Positions 52,893 to 63,444 of a stretch of DNA of 64,000 nt are shown in pieces. The notes under the pieces are model-generated. The model did no database searches. It saw only the letters and a program-made list of their open reading frames with translations, and was not told where the DNA came from. Position 1 is the stretch's first letter. Every line of letters starts with the position of its first letter. The stretch spans positions 23,351 to 87,350 of the forward strand of contig JAFGON010000021.1 in NCBI GenBank assembly GCA_016926475.1, in the 5' to 3' direction. The DNA comes from a candidate division WOR-3 bacterium (GTDB lineage: Bacteria; SDB-A). Position numbers and translations under genes: made by a program.

Positions 52893-53873
52893 ATGTTTAA
52901 AGCAAAAATATACGGGACCGGCTCTTATGTTCCGGAGAGGGTAATTACAAATCAGGATTTTGAAAAATATCTCGACACTTCAGATAAATGGATAACCGAA
53001 AGATCAGGTATAAAAGAGAGACATTGGGTCAGAGACGATCAAGCGACGTCTGACATGGTGCTGGAATCTTCAAAGAAAGCCATCGAATCTTCAGGAATCG
53101 ACCCGGATAAAATTGACATGATCATAGTAGCGACCATATCACCCGACCATTTATTTCCTTCAACGGCATGCTTGGTCCAGCAGAAGCTGAACCTAAGAAC
53201 CATCCCTGCTTTTGATATTTCAGCCGCCTGCACCGGGTTCATATACGCAATGGAAATAGCCCGTAATTTCATAGCAAACAAAACAGCGCGGTACATTTTA
53301 GTGTCGGCGGCGGAGACTTTGTCGAAAATTTCAGACAAGGACGACAGGAGCACAGTCGTGCTTTTTGGGGACGGAGCAGGTTCGGTTTTGCTCGGACCGT
53401 CGGAAGGAAAAAGCGGTATCATCTCGACAAGAATTTATTCAGACGGAAACCTTTCAAAACTTTTAGAAATGCCAGCGGGGGGCTCCCGCTATCCAGCATC
53501 CGAAGAGACGGTAAAAAACAAGATGCATTATTTGAAAATGCAGGGAAACGAGACCTACAAGCACGCCGTGACCAAAATGGGCAACGTCGCCATCGAAGTT
53601 CTCAAACTCGCCGGTATCACCGGGAAGGAAGTCGACATTTTCATACCTCATCAGGCAAATTACAGAATAATGGAGTCAACTGCTCTCAGGGCAGGCGTTG
53701 CAGTCGAAAAGGTATACGTGACAATTCATAAATATGGGAATATGTCAGCGGCGACTATCCCTGTAGCTCTCGATGAAGCAGTCAGAGAGAACAAGATAAA
53801 ACCCGGCGATGTCGTTCTTCTCGACGCTTTTGGAGGAGGATTGACTTGGGGGGCAACGGTTTTGAGGTGGTGA
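52893..53873 (+). CDS. fabH: beta-ketoacyl-ACP synthase III
   Basis: A 326-aa enzyme that condenses an acyl-CoA primer with malonyl-ACP to start fatty-acid synthesis. The triad is intact: AFDISAACTGFIYAME (Cys113), FIPHQANYRIME (His) and KYGNMSAATIPVAL (Asn). The C-terminal FGGGLTWG is canonical. Only 3 bases separate it from ptb, which could supply butyryl- or branched acyl-CoA primers. No other fatty-acid synthesis gene is beside it. Confidence 0.95.
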   Translation: MFKAKIYGTGSYVPERVITNQDFEKYLDTSDKWITERSGIKERHWVRDDQATSDMVLESSKKAIESSGIDPDKIDMIIVATISPDHLFPSTACLVQQKLNLRTIPAFDISAACTGFIYAMEIARNFIANKTARYILVSAAETLSKISDKDDRSTVVLFGDGAGSVLLGPSEGKSGIISTRIYSDGNLSKLLEMPAGGSRYPASEETVKNKMHYLKMQGNETYKHAVTKMGNVAIEVLKLAGITGKEVDIFIPHQANYRIMESTALRAGVAVEKVYVTIHKYGNMSAATIPVALDEAVRENKIKPGDVVLLDAFGGGLTWGATVLRW

Positions 53874-56173
53874 TAAATGGTTTTGCGGAGATACTTTTCA
53901 AGGTAAAACATCCGACAAGATACATAGGAAACGAAATAAACTCAACGCTGAAAAGTACAGAACCGCTTTTTTTGTTGTGTTACCCGGATGTATACGAAAT
54001 CGGAATGTCCAATCTTGGAATTCAAATCCTAAGGCATATTCTCGCCTCGGAAGGTTATAATTCAGAGAGGGTTTTCAGTCCGGACAGAGACCTCGAAAGG
54101 GAACTGACCCTTAGAGATCTGCCTCTTTTTTCACTTGAATCCAAGACCCCCGTAAAAAATTTTCCGGTTCTCGGTTTTTCTCTTGAATGCGAACTCAACA
54201 TAACGAATATGATTAATGTCCTGACTCTCGGCAAAATACCTCTCTCGCGTTTAGAACGCGACGATGATGATCCCGTGGTTATAGCCGGAGGGGCGTCTGT
54301 CCTCAATCCTGAACCATGGTCTTTTTTCATTGACGCGTTCGTCGAGGGCGAAGCAGAATTCGTCATCCTCAAAATTGCCCTATTAGCTGAAGAATACAAG
54401 AAAAAAAGGATTACACGGCATGAGTTTTTAAAAGAATTGTCCCTTCTCCAAGGCGTCTACGTGCCGGAATTTCCATGCGAAATAGTCGAATATCTCAGGG
54501 TAGACGAGCTTTTGTTTGAACACGCTCCCCTTCCTCCCATCGTCCCTTTCATGAAAACCACACACGACAGACAAGCCGTCGAGATATCAAGAGGATGCCC
54601 TCGCTCATGTAAATTTTGCCAGGCAGGTTCTGTCTCGAGAAATGTAAGACACCGTCCGGCAAAAGACGTCATAGAAATCGCTAAAGCAGGAATAGAAATG
54701 TCCGGCTGGGAAGAACTGTCGCTTTTAAGCCTGTCAGTTTGCGACCATCCTGAACTGGATCTGATGGTCGCCGACCTCTATCCTTATCTGAAAAGAAACA
54801 GGACGAACCTCTCTCTTCCGTCTTTGAGGGCTGACAGCGTAAGCGAACATGTTCTCAAAATTGCAGGAGATCTGGGGCACAGAACACTCACCCTCGCCCC
54901 GGAAGCGGGAAACGAATCATTGAGAACTTCCATTGGCAAGACCATGAAAGACCAAGATATTTTGACCTCTGTGGAAAGAGCCGTCAAATACGGTTTTGAG
55001 AGAATTAAATTTTATTTTATGGTCGGTTTGCCTGGAGAGAAAGACAGGGACTTGGAAGACATAGCGGATCTCGTATTGGATGTCTCCAAAGCGATGAAAA
55101 AAAAAGACATCAGGGTTTCAATAGCTCCTTTCGTACCGAGACCTCACACTTTGTTTCAAAACGCACCACAGGAAAGCTACGAAGAAATCACCCGCAAATA
55201 CTGTCTTATCGCCAATAAACTCCAAAAAATGAGAAGAAACATAAATTTCAGAGATCCAAAAGTTTCGTTTGTCGAGGGTCTTTTGTCGAGAGGAGCAGAG
55301 AATATATCCGCCGCCGCTATTTACGCCTTCAACAGCGGTTCGAGATTCGATCAGTGGCACGAGAACTTCAACTTCGAATTATGGAAAGATTCCCTTGAAA
55401 GAGCAGGTGTGGACATTCACGGAGAATCCAAAAACCCGTCTTATATTCAAAAGCGCTGGGAAAGGATAAAAGTTCGGCACACCCCTTCAAAACCCCACAC
55501 AAGAGTTTATGAGAAACTTTCTTTTACCCCTCCCTCGTCAGGTTTCGTGCTTTCAAACCCGGGAAAGGTTTTTTATTACAGACTCAAATACTCCAAAGAA
55601 GAACCTCTTCGGCATATTTCACATCTGGAGCTCACAAATGCAGTTCTGCGATCTCTTAGAAGAGCCGGTTTGAAGCTGGATTACACCAGGGGTAAAAGGC
55701 CCAAACCGGACGTCAGTTTTGGACCTCCTCTCCCCTGCGGGGCTACATCGGATGCAGAACTGATGGATTTTTCGTCTCAGTTTTTTTTAGAAACAAGTAT
55801 TATAGAATCCCTGAAGTCTTTTTTCCCCAAGGGAATAAAACCTTTGGAATTGTTTTATTTTGATAAAAAACCGCCCCCCATAACTTCATCGGATCTTGAA
55901 ATAACATACATCTGTGAAAACTGCGAAATCGACGAAACTGCAAAGAAAAGATTTTATTCAGACGAATGTTGCTCTGTTGAAAGGATTCACAGGGGCAGGA
56001 CAAAAAAAATTGAATTGAAGAAATACGTCAAAAATATTGATACCGGAAGAGAGGGTTTTGTTTTCAAGATCAATTTCACCAGAGAGGGGTCTGTGAGATT
56101 GTCGGAATTGGAGAGTTATTTCCATATAAAAAAATTTTCAAACTGGAAAAGAACAGTTATAAATCAGAGGTAA
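53870..56173 (+). CDS. B12-binding-type radical SAM protein (TIGR03960) with fused TIGR03936 domain
   Basis: About 767 aa. An N-terminal B12-binding-like domain (FLLCYPDVYEIGMSNLGIQI, VLGFSLECELNITNMINV) precedes a radical SAM barrel with ISRGCPRSCKFCQAG (C-x3-C-x2-C) and GLPGEKDRDLEDIAD. A separate C-terminal domain of about 200 residues begins FYYRLKYSKEEPLRHISHLE, the TIGR03936 domain. This fusion is regularly found just before RNase G, as here. Its reaction is not established; a role in RNA or ribosome modification has been suggested from context. I chose the GTG at 53870, whose GTGA overlaps the fabH stop; a TTG at 53846 has a strong GGAGGAGGA site, but that lies in fabH conserved codons. 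Confidence 0.88.
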   Translation: MINGFAEILFKVKHPTRYIGNEINSTLKSTEPLFLLCYPDVYEIGMSNLGIQILRHILASEGYNSERVFSPDRDLERELTLRDLPLFSLESKTPVKNFPVLGFSLECELNITNMINVLTLGKIPLSRLERDDDDPVVIAGGASVLNPEPWSFFIDAFVEGEAEFVILKIALLAEEYKKKRITRHEFLKELSLLQGVYVPEFPCEIVEYLRVDELLFEHAPLPPIVPFMKTTHDRQAVEISRGCPRSCKFCQAGSVSRNVRHRPAKDVIEIAKAGIEMSGWEELSLLSLSVCDHPELDLMVADLYPYLKRNRTNLSLPSLRADSVSEHVLKIAGDLGHRTLTLAPEAGNESLRTSIGKTMKDQDILTSVERAVKYGFERIKFYFMVGLPGEKDRDLEDIADLVLDVSKAMKKKDIRVSIAPFVPRPHTLFQNAPQESYEEITRKYCLIANKLQKMRRNINFRDPKVSFVEGLLSRGAENISAAAIYAFNSGSRFDQWHENFNFELWKDSLERAGVDIHGESKNPSYIQKRWERIKVRHTPSKPHTRVYEKLSFTPPSSGFVLSNPGKVFYYRLKYSKEEPLRHISHLELTNAVLRSLRRAGLKLDYTRGKRPKPDVSFGPPLPCGATSDAELMDFSSQFFLETSIIESLKSFFPKGIKPLELFYFDKKPPPITSSDLEITYICENCEIDETAKKRFYSDECCSVERIHRGRTKKIELKKYVKNIDTGREGFVFKINFTREGSVRLSELESYFHIKKFSNWKRTVINQR

Positions 56174-56175
56174 AG

Positions 56176-57693
56176 GTGGAAAACGGAATATTTATTAATT
56201 CTTTCGACGAGGAATTGAGGGTTGCTGTAATCAGCAACGGGAGACTGCTGGATATATTTATCGAGACATTCGACAGAAAAAAATTTGTTGGAGACATCTA
56301 TAAAGGAGTGATAACCCAGGTCAACACTGGATTGAACGCCGCGTTCGTCGATATTGCCGGTGAAAAGTCGGCTTTTTTGCCGCTCTCCGAAGTGATGTCA
56401 GACTCGATAGATTTCGAGGGCGAGGAACCTAGCGAGAAAAGGCATCTTGAAAAAGGGCAGATTATTTATCTTCAAATCACAAAATCACCAATGGGTAAAA
56501 AGGGCCCCAGAGCGACGACTTACATTTCAATACCCGGCAAGTATTGTGTTATGATGCCAGGAAGGAAAATCGTCGGTATTTCGAGAAAAATCAAAAACAA
56601 AGACGAGAAAAAACGCCTGCGAGCACTGGGAAAAGATTTAATCACAGATGATTTCGGCATCATCATCAGAACCGAAGCGCAAAACAGGACAAAAGAAGAC
56701 ATACTTTCTGATCTCGCGGTTTTAAAAAACAAATGGAGAGAAATCGAGGACATCTCCAAAAAAAGGGAAGCCCCAACCCTGCTTTACACCGAAGACGATC
56801 CCACAATAAGGATTTTAAGAGACCATTTACTCATTTCGACCGAACAGCTCGTCATAGACAACTCTTCGCTGTTCAAGAAGATTCAGAAATATCTTACTTC
56901 GACGAATAAATCCGGAGACCTGCTGAAGAAAATAAAGCTTTACAACGACAAACTCCCCATATTCGAGTATTACGGAATAGAAGAAGAGATAACCAAGCTG
57001 TTTTCTCCCATAGTCCCCCTTTCTTCCGGAGCATACGTCATATTTCAGCATACCGAAGCGCTTGTGGCGATAGACGTCAACAGCGGCAAGTATTCAAACA
57101 TAAACAACCCTGAAGACCTCGCCTACAGAATCAACCTCGAAGCGGCACGCGAGATAGCAAAACAGGTCAGGTTGCGAAATTTGGGGGGATTGATAGTAAT
57201 AGATTTCATAGACATGCAGACCGAAGACCACAGAAGAGCCGTAAAAGCCGAAATCGACAAGCATATGTCGGGGGACAAAGCGAACTATTACACGCTTCCA
57301 ATAAGCGAACTTGGACTGTTGCAGATGACCCGCAAAAGAACTGGACCTTCAGTTGTTCAAAATCTGCAGAAAAATTGTCCTTTCTGCAAGGGTTCAGGCC
57401 TTCTTTTCGAAGACCATTACATATCGAGTTCTCTGAAAAGATGGCTGAGAAACGTCTCGGATAAACTGTCCGGAAAAACCATCCAGATTCGACTGCCGAG
57501 AAGGCTGTATGAATTTATTTCACACCAGCTCTCTTCTTTTTTTGTGTCTCTTTCAAAGGAGAAAAACATAAGCATCGAGACCGTTTTTGACCCGTCGGCA
57601 GCCGGCGACCAGATTTCGGTATGGTGTATAAACGACAACGTTGAAATAAGCCATTGGGAAGGAGGTCTTCTTCCCGACATCGAAGTAAAATAA
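56176..57693 (+). CDS. rng: ribonuclease G/E family endoribonuclease
   Basis: 505 aa, the size of RNase G. The N-terminal S1-like region (VGDIYKGVITQVNTGLNAAF) is followed by the RNase H-like/DNase I-like catalytic core with VAIDVNSGKYSN (metal-binding Asp) and GLIVIDFIDM. The zinc-link cysteines are in CPFCKGSGLL. It lacks the long C-terminal scaffold of RNase E. It matures rRNA and initiates mRNA decay. The GTG start comes directly after the radical SAM gene stop with AGAGG upstream. The rplU-rpmA genes often found after this pair are not here. Confidence 0.95.
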   Translation: MENGIFINSFDEELRVAVISNGRLLDIFIETFDRKKFVGDIYKGVITQVNTGLNAAFVDIAGEKSAFLPLSEVMSDSIDFEGEEPSEKRHLEKGQIIYLQITKSPMGKKGPRATTYISIPGKYCVMMPGRKIVGISRKIKNKDEKKRLRALGKDLITDDFGIIIRTEAQNRTKEDILSDLAVLKNKWREIEDISKKREAPTLLYTEDDPTIRILRDHLLISTEQLVIDNSSLFKKIQKYLTSTNKSGDLLKKIKLYNDKLPIFEYYGIEEEITKLFSPIVPLSSGAYVIFQHTEALVAIDVNSGKYSNINNPEDLAYRINLEAAREIAKQVRLRNLGGLIVIDFIDMQTEDHRRAVKAEIDKHMSGDKANYYTLPISELGLLQMTRKRTGPSVVQNLQKNCPFCKGSGLLFEDHYISSSLKRWLRNVSDKLSGKTIQIRLPRRLYEFISHQLSSFFVSLSKEKNISIETVFDPSAAGDQISVWCINDNVEISHWEGGLLPDIEVK

Positions 57694-57706: not shown

Positions 57707-59095
57707 ATGACGGCAATACAGAAAAATATCGACGATCAGAGGGAAAATATCCTGTCTGACATAAGTGAATTGATCGAAATTCCGAGTGTTAAAAGCGAAG
57801 CTCTTCCCGGAGCTCCTTTCGGGGGGGAAGTGTCGAGGGTTTTTGATAAAGCGCTGGCTCTTGGAAAAAAATTGGGCCTTAAATCGTTTTCAGGCGACGG
57901 ACACTACGTGTATTTTGAAATCGGAGAAGGTTCAACCCTGGGTTCAATTTTATGCCATTTGGATGTAGTGCCGGCTGAATCAGGATGGAAGCACCCTCCC
58001 TTCAAAGGTACTCTTGAGAATGGAAACCTTTACGGAAGAGGAGTTGAAGACGACAAAGGACCAGCTGTCTGTTCTCTTTACGCCCTTCACATCCTGCAGA
58101 ACACTACAGGAGTCAAAGGCAGACTGAGGTTGATTCTGGGCGGGGACGAAGAATCGAGTTGGAAATGCATAGAAAAATACAAAGAAACCGAAGAAATACC
58201 CCTTTACGGAATAACCCCGGACTCCCAATTCCCGGTGATTTACGCTGAAAAAAATATTTTCAGGATAAACCTTACTGTTCCTTTTGAATCCAAGTATATC
58301 GATTCAGTCTTTGGTGGATCAGCGGTAAACATGGTTCCAGACAACGCTTGCGCGGTTTTAAAACAGGGGGTTTCCCTGCGGGGCGAAGAGGATATCATCA
58401 AGAAACACTTTTCGGACACGTTGACCGTCGGAGACAGAAAAGGGAAAAAATCATTTTTCGCCAGAGGTAAATCGGCACACGCCAGCACTCCAGATAAGGG
58501 GAAAAATGCCGTTTCCACTCTTTTTGACTTTTTGTCCAAGGTAATACCCCCTGACGATCCATTCAAGCTTTTCATAGACTTCTACGCTAAAAACATCGCT
58601 CATGACCACAGAGGAGAAAACCTCGGTATAGCTTTGGAAGACGAAGTCTCAGGCCACCTTACCATCAACCCCGGTTTGCTGCTATCAAAAGAAGGTCTTT
58701 TAAGAATTTCCAACGACATAAGATGCCCTATTAAATACAAGGTCGAAGAAGTTGTCGAAATTCTTGAGAAAATTGAATTTCCCGGATTTAAAATTGAAGT
58801 CGAAAAAACTGTTCCGGGGCTCTACGTCCCTAAGGATTCACCTCTTGTGTCCGTTTTGTTGGATGTCTACAGAAAAATCACCGGCGACACCTCCCCTCCC
58901 TTGGCAATCGGAGGCGGTACCTACGCGAGAGCTTTTCCCAACACGGTAGCTTTCGGCCCTGTTTTCCCAAAAAGAGAGATAATGGCACATCAACCCGACG
59001 AATTTATGCCTGTTGAAGATATTTTCTCCTTCACAGAAATCCTCACCCAAGCTCTTTTCGAACTCGACTACAAGTACGCCGGAGAAGGCAGATGA
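57707..59095 (+). CDS. M20-family dipeptidase (PepV/Sapep-like)
   Basis: A 462-aa zinc peptidase. It shows LCHLDVVPAE (first metal His and Asp), YGRGVEDDKGPAVCSL (bridging Asp), GGDEESSWKCIEKY (catalytic Glu pair), GKSAHASTPDKGKNAV in the lid domain and GGGTYARAFPNTVAFGP near the end. The long lid and these motifs fit PepV rather than the amidohydrolase encoded at 31253. It should split dipeptides in the cytoplasm. The ATG has a GAAGGGA site; the stop overlaps the next start (ATGA). Confidence 0.92.
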   Translation: MTAIQKNIDDQRENILSDISELIEIPSVKSEALPGAPFGGEVSRVFDKALALGKKLGLKSFSGDGHYVYFEIGEGSTLGSILCHLDVVPAESGWKHPPFKGTLENGNLYGRGVEDDKGPAVCSLYALHILQNTTGVKGRLRLILGGDEESSWKCIEKYKETEEIPLYGITPDSQFPVIYAEKNIFRINLTVPFESKYIDSVFGGSAVNMVPDNACAVLKQGVSLRGEEDIIKKHFSDTLTVGDRKGKKSFFARGKSAHASTPDKGKNAVSTLFDFLSKVIPPDDPFKLFIDFYAKNIAHDHRGENLGIALEDEVSGHLTINPGLLLSKEGLLRISNDIRCPIKYKVEEVVEILEKIEFPGFKIEVEKTVPGLYVPKDSPLVSVLLDVYRKITGDTSPPLAIGGGTYARAFPNTVAFGPVFPKREIMAHQPDEFMPVEDIFSFTEILTQALFELDYKYAGEGR

Positions 59096-60240
59096 AAACA
59101 ATCACGGTTCTCGGAGCGGGTTCTGTCGGGAGCCTTGTCGCAGAGGAGATGTCTCGTGATTACAGGGTAATCAGCGTCGACAGGGATTCAAAAAACTTGT
59201 CGAGAATCAAAGGCAAAAAAAACATCGTCGCCCTGCAGGGCGACCTCACCGATGAGGCGGAAACCCTCAGAGCGGTCTCAGGATCAGACCTCGCTATTTT
59301 GGCTTTGCCTGGTTCTTTTGGGTACCAGACTCTTAAAACTCTCATCAAAACCGGTGTTGACACTGTGGACATTTCTTTTTTTGAAGAAGACCCTTTCTCC
59401 CTCGAAGATCTCGCTAAAGACAAAGGGATTCAATTTTCAGTTGACTGCGGCGTCGCCCCCGGGCTCTGCAACATAATTCTCGGAAGACATGCTGCGATGG
59501 AAAACGTCCATTCATACAGCTGCATGGTAGGAGGCCTCGTCAGAGCCAGGCATTTGCCCTATGAATACAAATCCGTATTTTCGCCCTCCGACGTAATAGC
59601 CGAATATGTGAGAGAAGCGCGAATTGTCGAAGACAATCAACTGAAAATCAAACCCGCCCTTTCGGCCCCCGAGTTTCTGGAATTTGAAGGGGTGGGGACT
59701 CTCGTCGCTTTCAACACAGACGGTCTAAGGACCCTCATAAAAACCATGAAAATTCCTTTTATGTCTGAAAAAACTCTCCGATACCCAAAGACCTATGAAT
59801 ACCTAAAAGTTCTGAAAGATTCCGGATTTTTCTCAGATAGAGAAATCACCGTGCAAGGTAAATCCATAAAACCCTGTGATGTCAGCGAAATCCTGCTGTC
59901 CGGCATCTGGAAAATCAGCACCGAAGACAGGGACATGACTCTGATGAAAATTCAGATTGAAACCTCTGAAAAATCAGTTTACACATACACTATTTCAGAC
60001 TTCTATGACGAAAAAGAAAACCGTCTTTCTATGGCGAGGACTACCGGCTTTACTTGTTGCGCCGTCAGCAGATTGTTTTTGGAAGACAGAATTGAAGGAG
60101 AAGGATTAATTACCCCGGAGCAAATTGGAAGTTCAAAATCTAATTTCGAATTCGTGGTTGAATATTTAAAGAACAAAAACATCAAGATCGAACTGGACGA
60201 GTTTAAAAATTCAGTTAAGCTTGAAAACCTTGCGAAATAA
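59092..60240 (+). CDS. saccharopine dehydrogenase family protein
   Basis: A 382-aa NAD(P)-dependent oxidoreductase-like protein. The Rossmann loop VLGAGSVGSLVAEEM opens the protein, with VISVDRD as the acidic end of the second strand (favouring NAD). DCGVAPGLCNIILGRHA and GGLVRARHLPYEYK are typical of saccharopine or lysine-6-dehydrogenase relatives. The precise substrate is not clear; no other lysine pathway gene is near. It overlaps the dipeptidase by 4 bases and the kinase-RapZ fusion by 20. Confidence 0.88.
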   Translation: MKTITVLGAGSVGSLVAEEMSRDYRVISVDRDSKNLSRIKGKKNIVALQGDLTDEAETLRAVSGSDLAILALPGSFGYQTLKTLIKTGVDTVDISFFEEDPFSLEDLAKDKGIQFSVDCGVAPGLCNIILGRHAAMENVHSYSCMVGGLVRARHLPYEYKSVFSPSDVIAEYVREARIVEDNQLKIKPALSAPEFLEFEGVGTLVAFNTDGLRTLIKTMKIPFMSEKTLRYPKTYEYLKVLKDSGFFSDREITVQGKSIKPCDVSEILLSGIWKISTEDRDMTLMKIQIETSEKSVYTYTISDFYDEKENRLSMARTTGFTCCAVSRLFLEDRIEGEGLITPEQIGSSKSNFEFVVEYLKNKNIKIELDEFKNSVKLENLAK

Positions 60241-61612
60241 AGCGTTCTTTCTCTACAGGGGATGTTTTGGGAGACTTCCCGAAACCTTTGACATCCTCCA
60301 ATCCTCAGATCAGACCAAAATTTTCTACAAGATGAAAGACAGCGAAAACCGGGCGATTGCCGTTTGTTTTAAATCGGAAGAAGAAGCGCGGGTTTTTGAA
60401 TACCTCTCGGGAATCCTTCTGAAAAGCGAAGTCGGAATCCCCAAGATTTTCGATTTTAAAGACAAATGTTTTCTCTGCGAAGACGCCGGGGAGGACTCCC
60501 TTTTCAAACTATCGGAAAAAAAAGCGGATAAAGAAAACACCATAACTTTGTACAAAAAAGCTCTCGAGTTATTATACGTAATGCAGACCAGAGCAGACTG
60601 TTTAGTAGATTATTCAAGGTGCAGACCCGTCAGGGAGTTCGACTATGTGTCTGTCATGTGGGACCTTGATTATTTTAAATATCTTTTTCTGAAAATTTTC
60701 GGCTTAAAACCCGATGAATACAGACTCGAGAACGAGTTTAAAAAACTCGCTTCGACCATATCGGAAATCTCCGAGAAAACATTTGTCCACAGGGATTTTC
60801 AGAGCAGAAATATTTATTTTAAAGGTTCAAAGATTCTGCTGATCGACTACACCGGGGCGAGAAGAGGACCCGCTCACTACGACCTCGCCTCTCTGCTTTT
60901 CCAGACCAGGGCTGACCTTTCCGACGATATCGTCAGGCAAATGCTCGATTGTTACATTGACCTCGACAAAAAAAAAATGTACAGCGGGAATTTTGACTTC
61001 CTCGACCTTGTTTTCAGCAGCGCTCTCTTCAGGATTTTGCAGAATCTGGGAGCATACGGTTTTAGAGGCTACCACGGACAAAATCCGACTTTCAAAACCC
61101 ACATTAAACAAGCGGTTCAAAAAGCCCTGAAATTAGCGGCGGGAAAATTTCCCGAGATATCCCTTAATCTCGAAAAAGCTCTTGAAAAAGCAGTTTCCCT
61201 GACACCAGAGACCTCTCCTGGAAAATTAAAAGTCAGATTGAAGAGTTTTTCCTATAAAAAGGGAATTCCGAGAGACTTAAGCGTTCACGGGGGCGGTTTT
61301 GTTTTCGACTGCAGGTCTTTGCCCAACCCCGGCAGGTTTCAGGAATTCCAAAATCTTACCGGCAAAGACGTCTTGGTCTCTTCTTTCCTGAAAAGAGAGA
61401 AAAAAGTCCGGAATTTTCTCGAATACGCCGAAAACATAATTAAATTGGCTGTCGATGATTTTTTGAGCAGGAAATTCGAACTGCTCGATATATATTTTGG
61501 CTGCACCGGAGGTGTCCACAGATCTGTTTTCTGCGCTGAAGAGCTGAAGCGCTCTCTGGAATCGAGAAGCTGCTTGGCGGTCGAATTGAACCATACAGAA
61601 CTGGACGATTGA
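60221..61612 (+). CDS. fusion of AmgK-like sugar kinase and RapZ C-terminal domain
   Basis: 463 aa with two parts. Residues 1-320 are an aminoglycoside-phosphotransferase-fold kinase: FVHRDFQSRNIYF (His190, Asp192, Asn197) and LLIDYTGARRGPAHYDLASL, which closely matches the DFQDA-xxGPxxYDLASLL form of AmgK, the anomeric MurNAc/GlcNAc kinase. Residues about 335-460 match the RapZ C-terminal domain: LKSFSYKKGIPRD, FDCRSLPNPGRF and FGCTGGVHRSVFCAEEL (Cys428). The RapZ N-terminal P-loop domain is absent. The start is TTG at 60221, overlapping the previous gene, without a clear ribosome site. The next gene encodes a MurU-like uridylyltransferase, supporting an amino-sugar role. RapZ-C binds glucosamine-6-phosphate and RNA in enterics; whether that holds here is unknown. 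Confidence 0.85.
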   Translation: MKTLRNKAFFLYRGCFGRLPETFDILQSSDQTKIFYKMKDSENRAIAVCFKSEEEARVFEYLSGILLKSEVGIPKIFDFKDKCFLCEDAGEDSLFKLSEKKADKENTITLYKKALELLYVMQTRADCLVDYSRCRPVREFDYVSVMWDLDYFKYLFLKIFGLKPDEYRLENEFKKLASTISEISEKTFVHRDFQSRNIYFKGSKILLIDYTGARRGPAHYDLASLLFQTRADLSDDIVRQMLDCYIDLDKKKMYSGNFDFLDLVFSSALFRILQNLGAYGFRGYHGQNPTFKTHIKQAVQKALKLAAGKFPEISLNLEKALEKAVSLTPETSPGKLKVRLKSFSYKKGIPRDLSVHGGGFVFDCRSLPNPGRFQEFQNLTGKDVLVSSFLKREKKVRNFLEYAENIIKLAVDDFLSRKFELLDIYFGCTGGVHRSVFCAEELKRSLESRSCLAVELNHTELDD

Positions 61613-62326
61613 TTGAAAGCGATGATTCTCGCCGCCGGTCTCGGCACAAGACTTGGAGAAATGACAAAAAACACCCCAAAAGCTCTCGTCGAAGTCAGAG
61701 GGGTTTCACTGATAGAAAATGTGGCGACAAAACTCGTCTCCCAGGGTTTTGGTGAAATTGTAGTCAATTTGCACCACTTTCCCGAGAAAATAATCTCTTT
61801 TCTCGAATCAAACCATTTTTTCGGAGCTGAAATGAAATTTTCTGTAGAGAAGGATTTCCCCCTCGGAACAGGTGGCGGAATTTTCTTTGCGGCAGAACTT
61901 TTAAAAGATTCCGAAACTTTCCTCGTCCACAATGTCGATGTCATATCAGACACAGACCTAAAATCGCTTTTTGATAGCCATTTAAGGTTAAAAAACGACG
62001 CGACTCTATCCGTCAAAAAGAGAGAGACCACAAGACCTCTTTTGTTCGAAAAAGGGGGAACTCTTCTGAGAAGGTTAACCGAAGGCGAAGAAATCAATTC
62101 CGAAAACAGCTATGTTTATGCCTTTTCAGGCATCCAGTGCATAAGCTCCTCCGTTTTAGAGAAAAAGCCTCCTTCCAGCGTTTTTTCCATAATTGATTTT
62201 TATCTTGAAAACAAACAGAGCGTGAAAACGGGTTATTCAGAGGACATTGGAAATTACTGGTTTGACGCGGGTAAACCGGAGATTTTGAGGCATCTGGAAA
62301 ATAACCCGCCTTTCAAAATTCCGTAA
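61613..62326 (+). CDS. murU: MurU-like sugar-1-phosphate nucleotidyltransferase
   Basis: 237 aa. The nucleotidyltransferase loop AMILAAGLGTRLGEMT (with TPKALVEVRG) begins at residue 3, followed by LGTGGGIFFA and VHNVDVISDTDL (metal Asp). NYWFDAGKPEILRHLE closes the protein. The size and motifs fit MurU, which makes UDP-MurNAc from MurNAc-1-phosphate, although GlcNAc-1-P or mannose-1-P uridylyl/guanylyltransferases look alike. It starts with TTG directly after the kinase-RapZ stop, making an AmgK-MurU-type pair. It is the last gene of the cmk run; no terminator hairpin is visible in the 43-base gap behind it. Confidence 0.8.
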   Translation: MKAMILAAGLGTRLGEMTKNTPKALVEVRGVSLIENVATKLVSQGFGEIVVNLHHFPEKIISFLESNHFFGAEMKFSVEKDFPLGTGGGIFFAAELLKDSETFLVHNVDVISDTDLKSLFDSHLRLKNDATLSVKKRETTRPLLFEKGGTLLRRLTEGEEINSENSYVYAFSGIQCISSSVLEKKPPSSVFSIIDFYLENKQSVKTGYSEDIGNYWFDAGKPEILRHLENNPPFKIP

Positions 62327-62369: not shown

Positions 62370-63008
62370 CTAAGCTTTTAAGATGCTGTCGATTATTCTC
62401 TTTATCTGTTCGGGCTTTTCTGCCGCGAATCTTGACGACTCAATTTCATCCCTTCCGTAACCATACAAAGCCGCCACAAAAACGAAACCGTTTTCTTCGG
62501 CTGCGGCCATATCGTGGTACCTGTCGCCTACCATGAATTTTCCGGAAGGTTTGAACTCACCCTCCAAATCCCTCAACATTTGTTTTTTGCTCTCCCCTCT
62601 GACCGGCACTCTAAGGGCGGAGAAGAGTTTATCGATTTTGAATTTCTCGACGACCGTCTTTATGTATATATCTGTGGCGTTTGAACATATCGCGAGAGTG
62701 AAATCCTTCAGACCATAGAGAAGTGGCAAAACTCCTTCATAGAGTTCCCCCTTCTCTCTGACCATTTCAAGTTCTCTTGTCTGAAATTCATCATACAATT
62801 CCAGCGCCTTCCCAGGGTTTGATATATCCTCAAGCCATTTAGCAAAGACGCTGTCGGGTTCGCCTATGAAAGAAAACAAAAATTCTTCCGGCGGTGTTTC
62901 TAATCTGTTGTTCGATAAAACTGTTTTGACAGCCTCAATAAATGAAGTTTCCGATCTGTAAAGGGTTCCGTCCATGTCAAAAACCGCCATGTTTAGTTTC
63001 TCCGTCAT
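62370..63008 (-). CDS. HAD-family phosphatase (Gph-like)
   Basis: About 212 aa. The HAD motifs are in order: AVFDMDGTLYRSETS (nucleophile Asp), LAICSNATD (motif II), and KKQMLRDLEGEF plus MVGDRYHDMAAAEENG (motifs III/IV). A helical cap lies between motifs I and II. It may hydrolyse phosphoglycolate or another small phosphoester. I chose the ATG at 63008, placed right after the GNAT stop with GGGGAG upstream; a TTG at 63038 would overlap that gene. It converges with the MurU-like gene. Confidence 0.85.
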   Translation of the reverse strand: MTEKLNMAVFDMDGTLYRSETSFIEAVKTVLSNNRLETPPEEFLFSFIGEPDSVFAKWLEDISNPGKALELYDEFQTRELEMVREKGELYEGVLPLLYGLKDFTLAICSNATDIYIKTVVEKFKIDKLFSALRVPVRGESKKQMLRDLEGEFKPSGKFMVGDRYHDMAAAEENGFVFVAALYGYGRDEIESSRFAAEKPEQIKRIIDSILKA

Positions 63009-63009
63009 A

Positions 63010-63444
63010 TTAAACTTCTCCCCAGGGTTTTTTGACAAAATACTTTATGTGTCCTTTTTTCACGTATCCTTTTTTCATAAAAGCCTTTTTGGACCATTCG
63101 TTGTCCTCATCTATCAGACAAGCGTATACTTTGATCTCTTTCTCCTTGAACCAGGCTTCGGCTTTTTCGATGAGCAGCTGGGCTATTCCTCTTCTTCCGA
63201 AATCTGGATCAACAGCCAGCCTGTTGACCCATCCTTTCCTGCCGTCGTGGGTTGCAAAAACGCTTCCGATTATTTTTCCATCGAATAAGGCAACGTAAAA
63301 ACACGTGTTTTCGAGAATACTCTGCTTTTTTATGATTTCTTTGGCATCTCTTCCATCGAGTTTGTAAGGCAACCCGCTCTTTTCCCAAAGCGCTATAAGG
63401 TTTTCGTGATCTTCGTCCACATATTTTTTGAAAACTATATCCAT
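63010..63444 (-). CDS. GNAT-family N-acetyltransferase
   Basis: About 144 aa. The acetyl-CoA loop is seen in VNRLAVDPDFGRRGIAQLL, after GKIIGSVFATHDG and before YACLIDEDNEWSKKAFMKKG, the usual GNAT order. The acceptor is unknown. I chose the ATG at 63444, preceded by GAGGGAAAA; the frame is open upstream to 63516 but without homology. The next gene, a HAD phosphatase, starts 1 base after its stop. Confidence 0.87.
   Translation of the reverse strand: MDIVFKKYVDEDHENLIALWEKSGLPYKLDGRDAKEIIKKQSILENTCFYVALFDGKIIGSVFATHDGRKGWVNRLAVDPDFGRRGIAQLLIEKAEAWFKEKEIKVYACLIDEDNEWSKKAFMKKGYVKKGHIKYFVKKPWGEV

Follow-up and report, generated by a model that had tools for sequence, protein, structure and literature searches.

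The window analysed here is a stretch of 64,000 nucleotides from a candidate division WOR-3 bacterium (GTDB lineage Bacteria; SDB-A), taken from the forward strand of GenBank assembly GCA_016926475.1 (contig JAFGON010000021.1, positions 23,351 to 87,350). It contains a gene in which an AmgK-like sugar kinase is fused to the C-terminal domain of RapZ (RapZ_C), and a MurU-like nucleotidyltransferase gene follows on the same strand (Table 1). The fusion gene is an open reading frame (ORF) that overlaps the upstream gene by 20 bases. Its translation holds HRDFQSRN, GPAHYDLASLL, FDCRSLPNPGRF, and GCTGGVHRS, i.e., every motif quoted in an earlier, sequence-only reading of this DNA, in which the fusion was proposed and its RapZ part placed at about residues 335–460.

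The motifs, the Pfam searches, and the structure matches agree on this architecture. The RapZ C-terminal domain (PapZ_C, PF22740) was matched at residues 337–461 (104 bits, E 7.1e-30, cut-off 27) and APH at residues 166–242 (34.7 bits, above the cut-off). The NCBIfam RapZ model gave 96.7 bits on the fusion, far under its equivalog cut-off. When PDB sequences were searched with phmmer, the C-terminal part matched E. coli RapZ and the kinase part matched 3csv, a putative APH. AlphaFold models had a mean predicted local distance difference test (pLDDT) score of 89 for the fusion and 93 for the C-terminal domain alone. The modelled C-terminal domain was superimposed on the crystal structure of the E. 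coli RapZ C-terminal domain (5o5s) with Z 20.9 and a root-mean-square deviation of 1.3 Å, and the modelled kinase part matched 3csv with Z 29.6. A 193-aa fragment of 3csv scored 176 bits on the AmgK model; thus, the nearest solved kinase is itself AmgK-like. Like AmgK-type kinases, the domain combines the APH fold with an HxDxxxxN catalytic loop (HRDFQSRN).

The first base of the MurU-like ORF lies directly after the stop of the fusion gene, as the sequence-only reading had stated. MurU was the best NCBIfam model for this ORF, and the top solved-structure matches include MurU enzymes (4y7t, 8hhd).

Table 1. Features of the kinase/RapZ_C locus (positions in the window; residues of the respective protein)
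Feature	Position	Strand	Evidence
Kinase/RapZ_C fusion gene, 463 aa, TTG start	60221..61612	+	ORF, Pfam, NCBIfam
AmgK-like APH-fold kinase domain, residues 1–330	60221..61210	+	Pfam APH; Z 29.6 to 3csv
Catalytic loop HRDFQSRN, residues 190–197; YRDFQSRN in most relatives	60788..60811	+	
RapZ_C domain, residues 336–463	61226..61609	+	PF22740; 5o5s match
NPGR, residues 369–372; G371 at the position of E. coli H190, R372 at that of W191	61325..61336	+	
Phosphate-binding loop GCTGGVHRS, residues 427–435, C-x5-R-S motif	61499..61525	+	Alignment; PMC5737377
MurU-like sugar-1-phosphate nucleotidyltransferase, 237 aa, TTG start	61613..62326	+	ORF; MurU model; solved matches
Saccharopine-dehydrogenase-like gene, overlaps the fusion start; neighbour, no functional link demonstrated	59092..60240	+	

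At least 527 relatives of the fusion were found in a scan of species genomes. The best 80 of them come from Bacteroidota, Elusimicrobiota, Marinimicrobiota, Ignavibacteriota, KSB1, and other groups, so the earlier guess that similar pairings exist in Bacteroidetes was borne out. A MurU-like gene lies downstream on the same strand within 400 bp in 86 of 111 fusions, and within 30 bp in 69. It is the only strongly recurrent neighbour, every other one being present in at most 12 loci. The fusion is the sole RapZ_C protein in each of four genomes of the window's phylum (G000–G003), and the MurU-like partner stands alongside it in all four. One locus (L097 in G066) was excluded because its kinase is spread over several frames, probably through sequence error. 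The fused domains and their split forms (see below) make up a single clade (support 100/99) on a long branch: the fused RapZ_C domain arose once.

The kinase and RapZ_C are inherited together. In one Bacteroidota family, RapZ_C was detected in 63 of 78 genomes. The kinase was searched for in all 15 RapZ_C-free genomes and in seven of the 63 with RapZ_C; it was found in none of the former and in all seven of the latter. In four genomes, kinase and RapZ_C are separate genes, divided where the two domains meet (L094 in G076, L105 in G051, L107 in G037, and L153 in G071), and the ATG of the RapZ_C gene overlaps the kinase stop or comes a few bases after it. Those split forms that were tabulated retain the GCTGGxHRS loop. 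Three of the four belong to one clade (98/99), and two of these are only 65% identical in the kinase, which points to an ancient split of the gene rather than a sequencing error. The fourth seems to be a separate event, less surely so given the long branches. From the co-occurrence with the kinase and the adjacency of the split genes, RapZ_C seems to be needed alongside the kinase, either in cis or in trans.

To compare ligand pockets, 111 fused and 14 canonical RapZ_C domains were aligned, together with one stand-alone domain (E. coli numbering is used). The C-terminal domain of E. coli RapZ binds glucosamine-6-phosphate (GlcN6P) (PMC7073468), and its pocket consists of H190, T248, G249, H252, and R253 (PMC5737377). 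The fused and the canonical sets share the GCTGGxHRS loop, D182, R184, N188, and P189, with few or no exceptions. C247, T248, G249, H252, and R253 are invariant across the 111 fusions, which makes the amino-sugar-phosphate site of the sequence-only reading plausible; the loop cysteine is also present in 14/14 canonical domains and in the stand-alone one. Of the five pocket residues, T, G, H, and R are kept in the fusions and H190 is G. The changes H190 to G, W/Y191 to R/K, and N/E236 to R are fixed in 111/111 fusions. Nearby, V183 is changed to C and R/K238 to F (W in two), and (H/N)GGG is inserted, so that positions 183, 190, 191, 236, and 238 differ from GlcN6P-binding RapZ in every fusion. 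Canonical RapZ outside E. coli has Y or N at position 190 in 6 of 14 sequences.

The fusion thus shares with E. coli RapZ the fold of the C-terminal domain, the residues C247, T248, G249, H252, and R253, and also D182 and R184. It differs in the pocket changes, in the attached kinase, and in the lack of both the RNA-binding tail and the N-terminal nucleoside triphosphatase-like domain (PF03668). The latter was found nowhere in the window genome, and the kinase takes its place in the fusion. Among 33 other fusion genomes, 26 are without this domain; seven, Elusimicrobia included, also have a separate RapZ, and the fusion is therefore not simply a substitute for RapZ. Two RapZ_C relatives outside the fusions were seen on plasmids. 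Stand-alone RapZ_C is encoded on actinobacterial plasmids (L140, and Streptomyces plasmid matches); in Planobispora it adjoins a NUDIX gene, and the Cys loop there is intact (GCAGGRHRS). On a Desulfosarcina ovata plasmid (L142, 4567–5171), RapZ is annotated as two short pieces beside a gene for a phosphotransferase system IIA protein, in what looks like a decayed rapZ-ptsN cluster.

On balance, we lean towards the view that the fusion and the MurU-like gene make up an AmgK/MurU-type module by which a cell-wall amino sugar is salvaged. As an anomeric kinase of the AmgK type, the N-terminal domain would produce a sugar 1-phosphate, most likely that of N-acetylmuramic acid (MurNAc), of N-acetylglucosamine (GlcNAc), or of both. 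The MurU-like enzyme would turn this product into the uridine diphosphate sugar. The fused RapZ_C would be a hexosamine-6-phosphate-binding module built around GCTGGxHRS that acts with the kinase and is not an RNA adapter; it would most likely sense the pool of amino-sugar phosphates allosterically and, next most likely, act as a phosphatase. The domain identities, the single origin of the fused domain, the linkage to MurU, the co-inheritance, and the conserved pocket with its fixed changes are established by the analyses above; the substrate, the ligand, its effect on the kinase, and the mechanism are what we infer here. The likeness to AmgK of Pseudomonas and Caulobacter lies in the APH fold, the same best family model, and the MurU-like gene next door. 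The second protein shares with MurU its length, best family model, and top solved matches. An AmgK/MurU route has been attributed to Tannerella forsythia, a member of Bacteroidota (PMC7670621), and its AmgK, which may be fused, split, or plain, has been used with its MurU in E. coli for the incorporation of MurNAc probes (PMC13041923).

Several observations weigh against this view. AmgK is the top-scoring kinase model for the fusion at 38 bits against a cut-off of 550, and 31.8 against 500. For the second protein, MurU reaches 116 bits (E 1.9e-33) against a cut-off of 250; its MurU activity is putative. Both scores are well under the curated cut-offs, and "AmgK-like" and "MurU-like" are accordingly the furthest that naming from sequence can go. 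Since the pocket is altered in 111/111 fusions, GlcN6P cannot be assumed to be the ligand of the fused domain. No measurements of ligand binding or activity on an established fusion protein came up in the literature search. Finally, the rest of the Pseudomonas route was missing in family and tblastn searches: none of the four phylum genomes yielded AnmK, true MurQ, or glycoside hydrolase family 3 (GH3)/NagZ, and NagA was not detected in them either, which is a weaker test. The standard recycling route, and with it an evident source of free MurNAc or GlcNAc, is thus missing here. The sequence-only reading had called the kinase a recycling enzyme; the AmgK/MurU-like pair holds, being kept in G000–G003 without the other genes, whereas recycling itself is uncertain here, and the coupling of salvage to de novo supply that the same reading proposed is hypothetical.

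MurA and MurB are present in the window genome, and MurA and/or MurB matches were obtained in G000–G003. GlmS is clear in G001–G003, with a weak match in the window genome. The window genome also encodes a BadF-family kinase whose best solved match is a MurNAc/GlcNAc kinase (E 3.7e-21), in a family search that does not distinguish MurK from other members; this MurK/NagK-like kinase is a possible source of hexosamine 6-phosphate. No genome was above the cut-off in the MupP search, in which the Caulobacter control was also under the cut-off. The convergent haloacid dehalogenase (HAD) gene at 62370–63038 was considered as MupP and rejected, as its best match is phosphoglycolate phosphatase and it scores 26 bits on the MupP model against a cut-off of 359.

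The low family scores and the missing NagZ, AnmK, and MurQ would also suit a pair acting on another substrate (GlcNAc or N-acetylgalactosamine only, choline as in LicA-LicC, or another sugar); the phosphate sensed by RapZ_C would then be an unrelated one. LicA, an APH-fold choline kinase, does match the modelled kinase part, but the AmgK-like 3csv lies well above it (Z 29.6 vs. 20.2), and the two proteins score highest on the AmgK and MurU models; we consider this explanation doubtful. An RNA-binding role was part of the sequence-only reading. Taken further, such a role would make the fused domain a regulator that acts on glmS-type transcripts by way of RNase E/G, as RapZ does in enterics. An RNase E/G gene (56176–57693) does lie in the same cluster as the fusion in genomes of the window's phylum, the fusions mostly retain K170 and R184, and E. 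coli RapZ touches the RNA backbone through this pocket (PMC9841335). Of the other RNA contacts named for RapZ (PMC9841335, PMC7073468), however, R196, R211, R238, K251, K270, and K281–K283 are not kept. The basic C-terminal tail (K270, K281–K283) is not conserved in the fusions and is variable in canonical RapZ outside enterics as well; the RNA-binding tail has been reported as limited to Enterobacteriaceae (PMC7073468). With the N-terminal domain, the tail, and most RNA contacts missing, RNA binding by the fused domain is not supported. Moreover, RNase E/G was absent among the identified recurrent-neighbour clusters of the other 80 loci and was dismissed as a partner of the fusion, not being a recurrent neighbour outside the window's phylum. 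In the window, it adjoins a TIGR03960/TIGR03936 radical S-adenosylmethionine (SAM) gene, a common housekeeping pairing. Control of transcripts by the fused domain is thus very improbable.

In a different reading of the pocket, RapZ_C would be a Cys-dependent hexosamine-6-phosphate phosphatase, which would dephosphorylate MurNAc-6-phosphate (or GlcNAc-6-phosphate) and pass the sugar to the AmgK domain. It would then hold the pathway position of MupP, the MurNAc-6-phosphate phosphatase of pseudomonads, whose HAD fold is unrelated, and phosphatase, 1-kinase, and uridylyltransferase would be encoded by two genes. GCTGGxHRS is a C-x5-R-S motif that stands between strand 91–98 and helix 104–117 of the domain model, as in Cys-dependent protein tyrosine phosphatases (PTPs), and its cysteine is kept in all domains aligned. 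Khan and Görke described the loop as homologous to the phosphate loop of PTPs and suggested slow GlcN6P hydrolysis (PMC7199280). According to Islam et al., E. coli RapZ loses its function in the C247A and C247S mutants, and a probable conversion product was seen in a crystal of the C-terminal domain with GlcN6P (PMC9841335). The changes H190G, R/K191, and R236 might accommodate a larger ligand of more acidic character, for example MurNAc-6-phosphate, and the split kinase and RapZ_C genes resemble two separate yet coupled enzymes. In seven fusion genomes AnmK is present and MurQ was not found, so MurNAc-6-phosphate would be left to a phosphatase; in 10 of 37 fusion genomes, however, neither was found. 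PTP folds, sought by structure search, matched the modelled domain weakly (3emu, Z 5.2; 3ezz, Z 4.9) and below phosphofructokinase (Z 6.8), so the whole-fold comparison lends no support either way. In addition, no general acid was identified, and other HAD phosphatases are present. Catalysis by RapZ_C is accordingly a tentative possibility, and we rate a sensor role as more likely. Slightly more speculative is the wider proposal that RapZ_C is an ancient phosphatase of this kind feeding the AmgK domain and MurU, that MupP was here replaced by an unrelated protein, and that enterics only later adopted this pocket for the RNA-adapter role.

Two further genes upstream of the fusion were recorded. 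The radical-SAM protein (53846–56173, matching both TIGR03960 and TIGR03936) beside RNase E/G is kept across the phylum genomes. A Sapep-type dipeptidase gene (57707–59095) adjoins the fusion/MurU pair in another genus of the phylum too (L131), and a link to wall-peptide salvage is possible.

As far as we found, the kinase/RapZ_C architecture is real, widespread, and functionally undescribed, in line with the sequence-only reading, which knew of no functional description. The literature search gave no paper linking RapZ to AmgK, to Bacteroides cell-wall biology, or to APH kinases. At least one such protein is publicly labelled "RNase adapter RapZ" although it is mostly kinase: a Parabacteroides distasonis homologue (WP_005858754.1), which NCBI so names on a plasmid record and whose next gene is a nucleotidyltransferase with a 4-base overlap. 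The architecture is ordinary in distribution, and its interest lies in the understanding of RapZ_C. This domain has been studied almost solely as an enterobacterial RNA adapter, and here it is found in Bacteroidota and several further phyla, joined to a cell-wall-sugar kinase and lacking the RNA-binding features. Whether its phosphatase-like loop has a catalytic role is a question already raised in print (PMC7199280, PMC9841335). The fusion and the naturally split pairs would provide a simple in vitro system for the role of RapZ_C beyond RNA and for catalysis by the loop.

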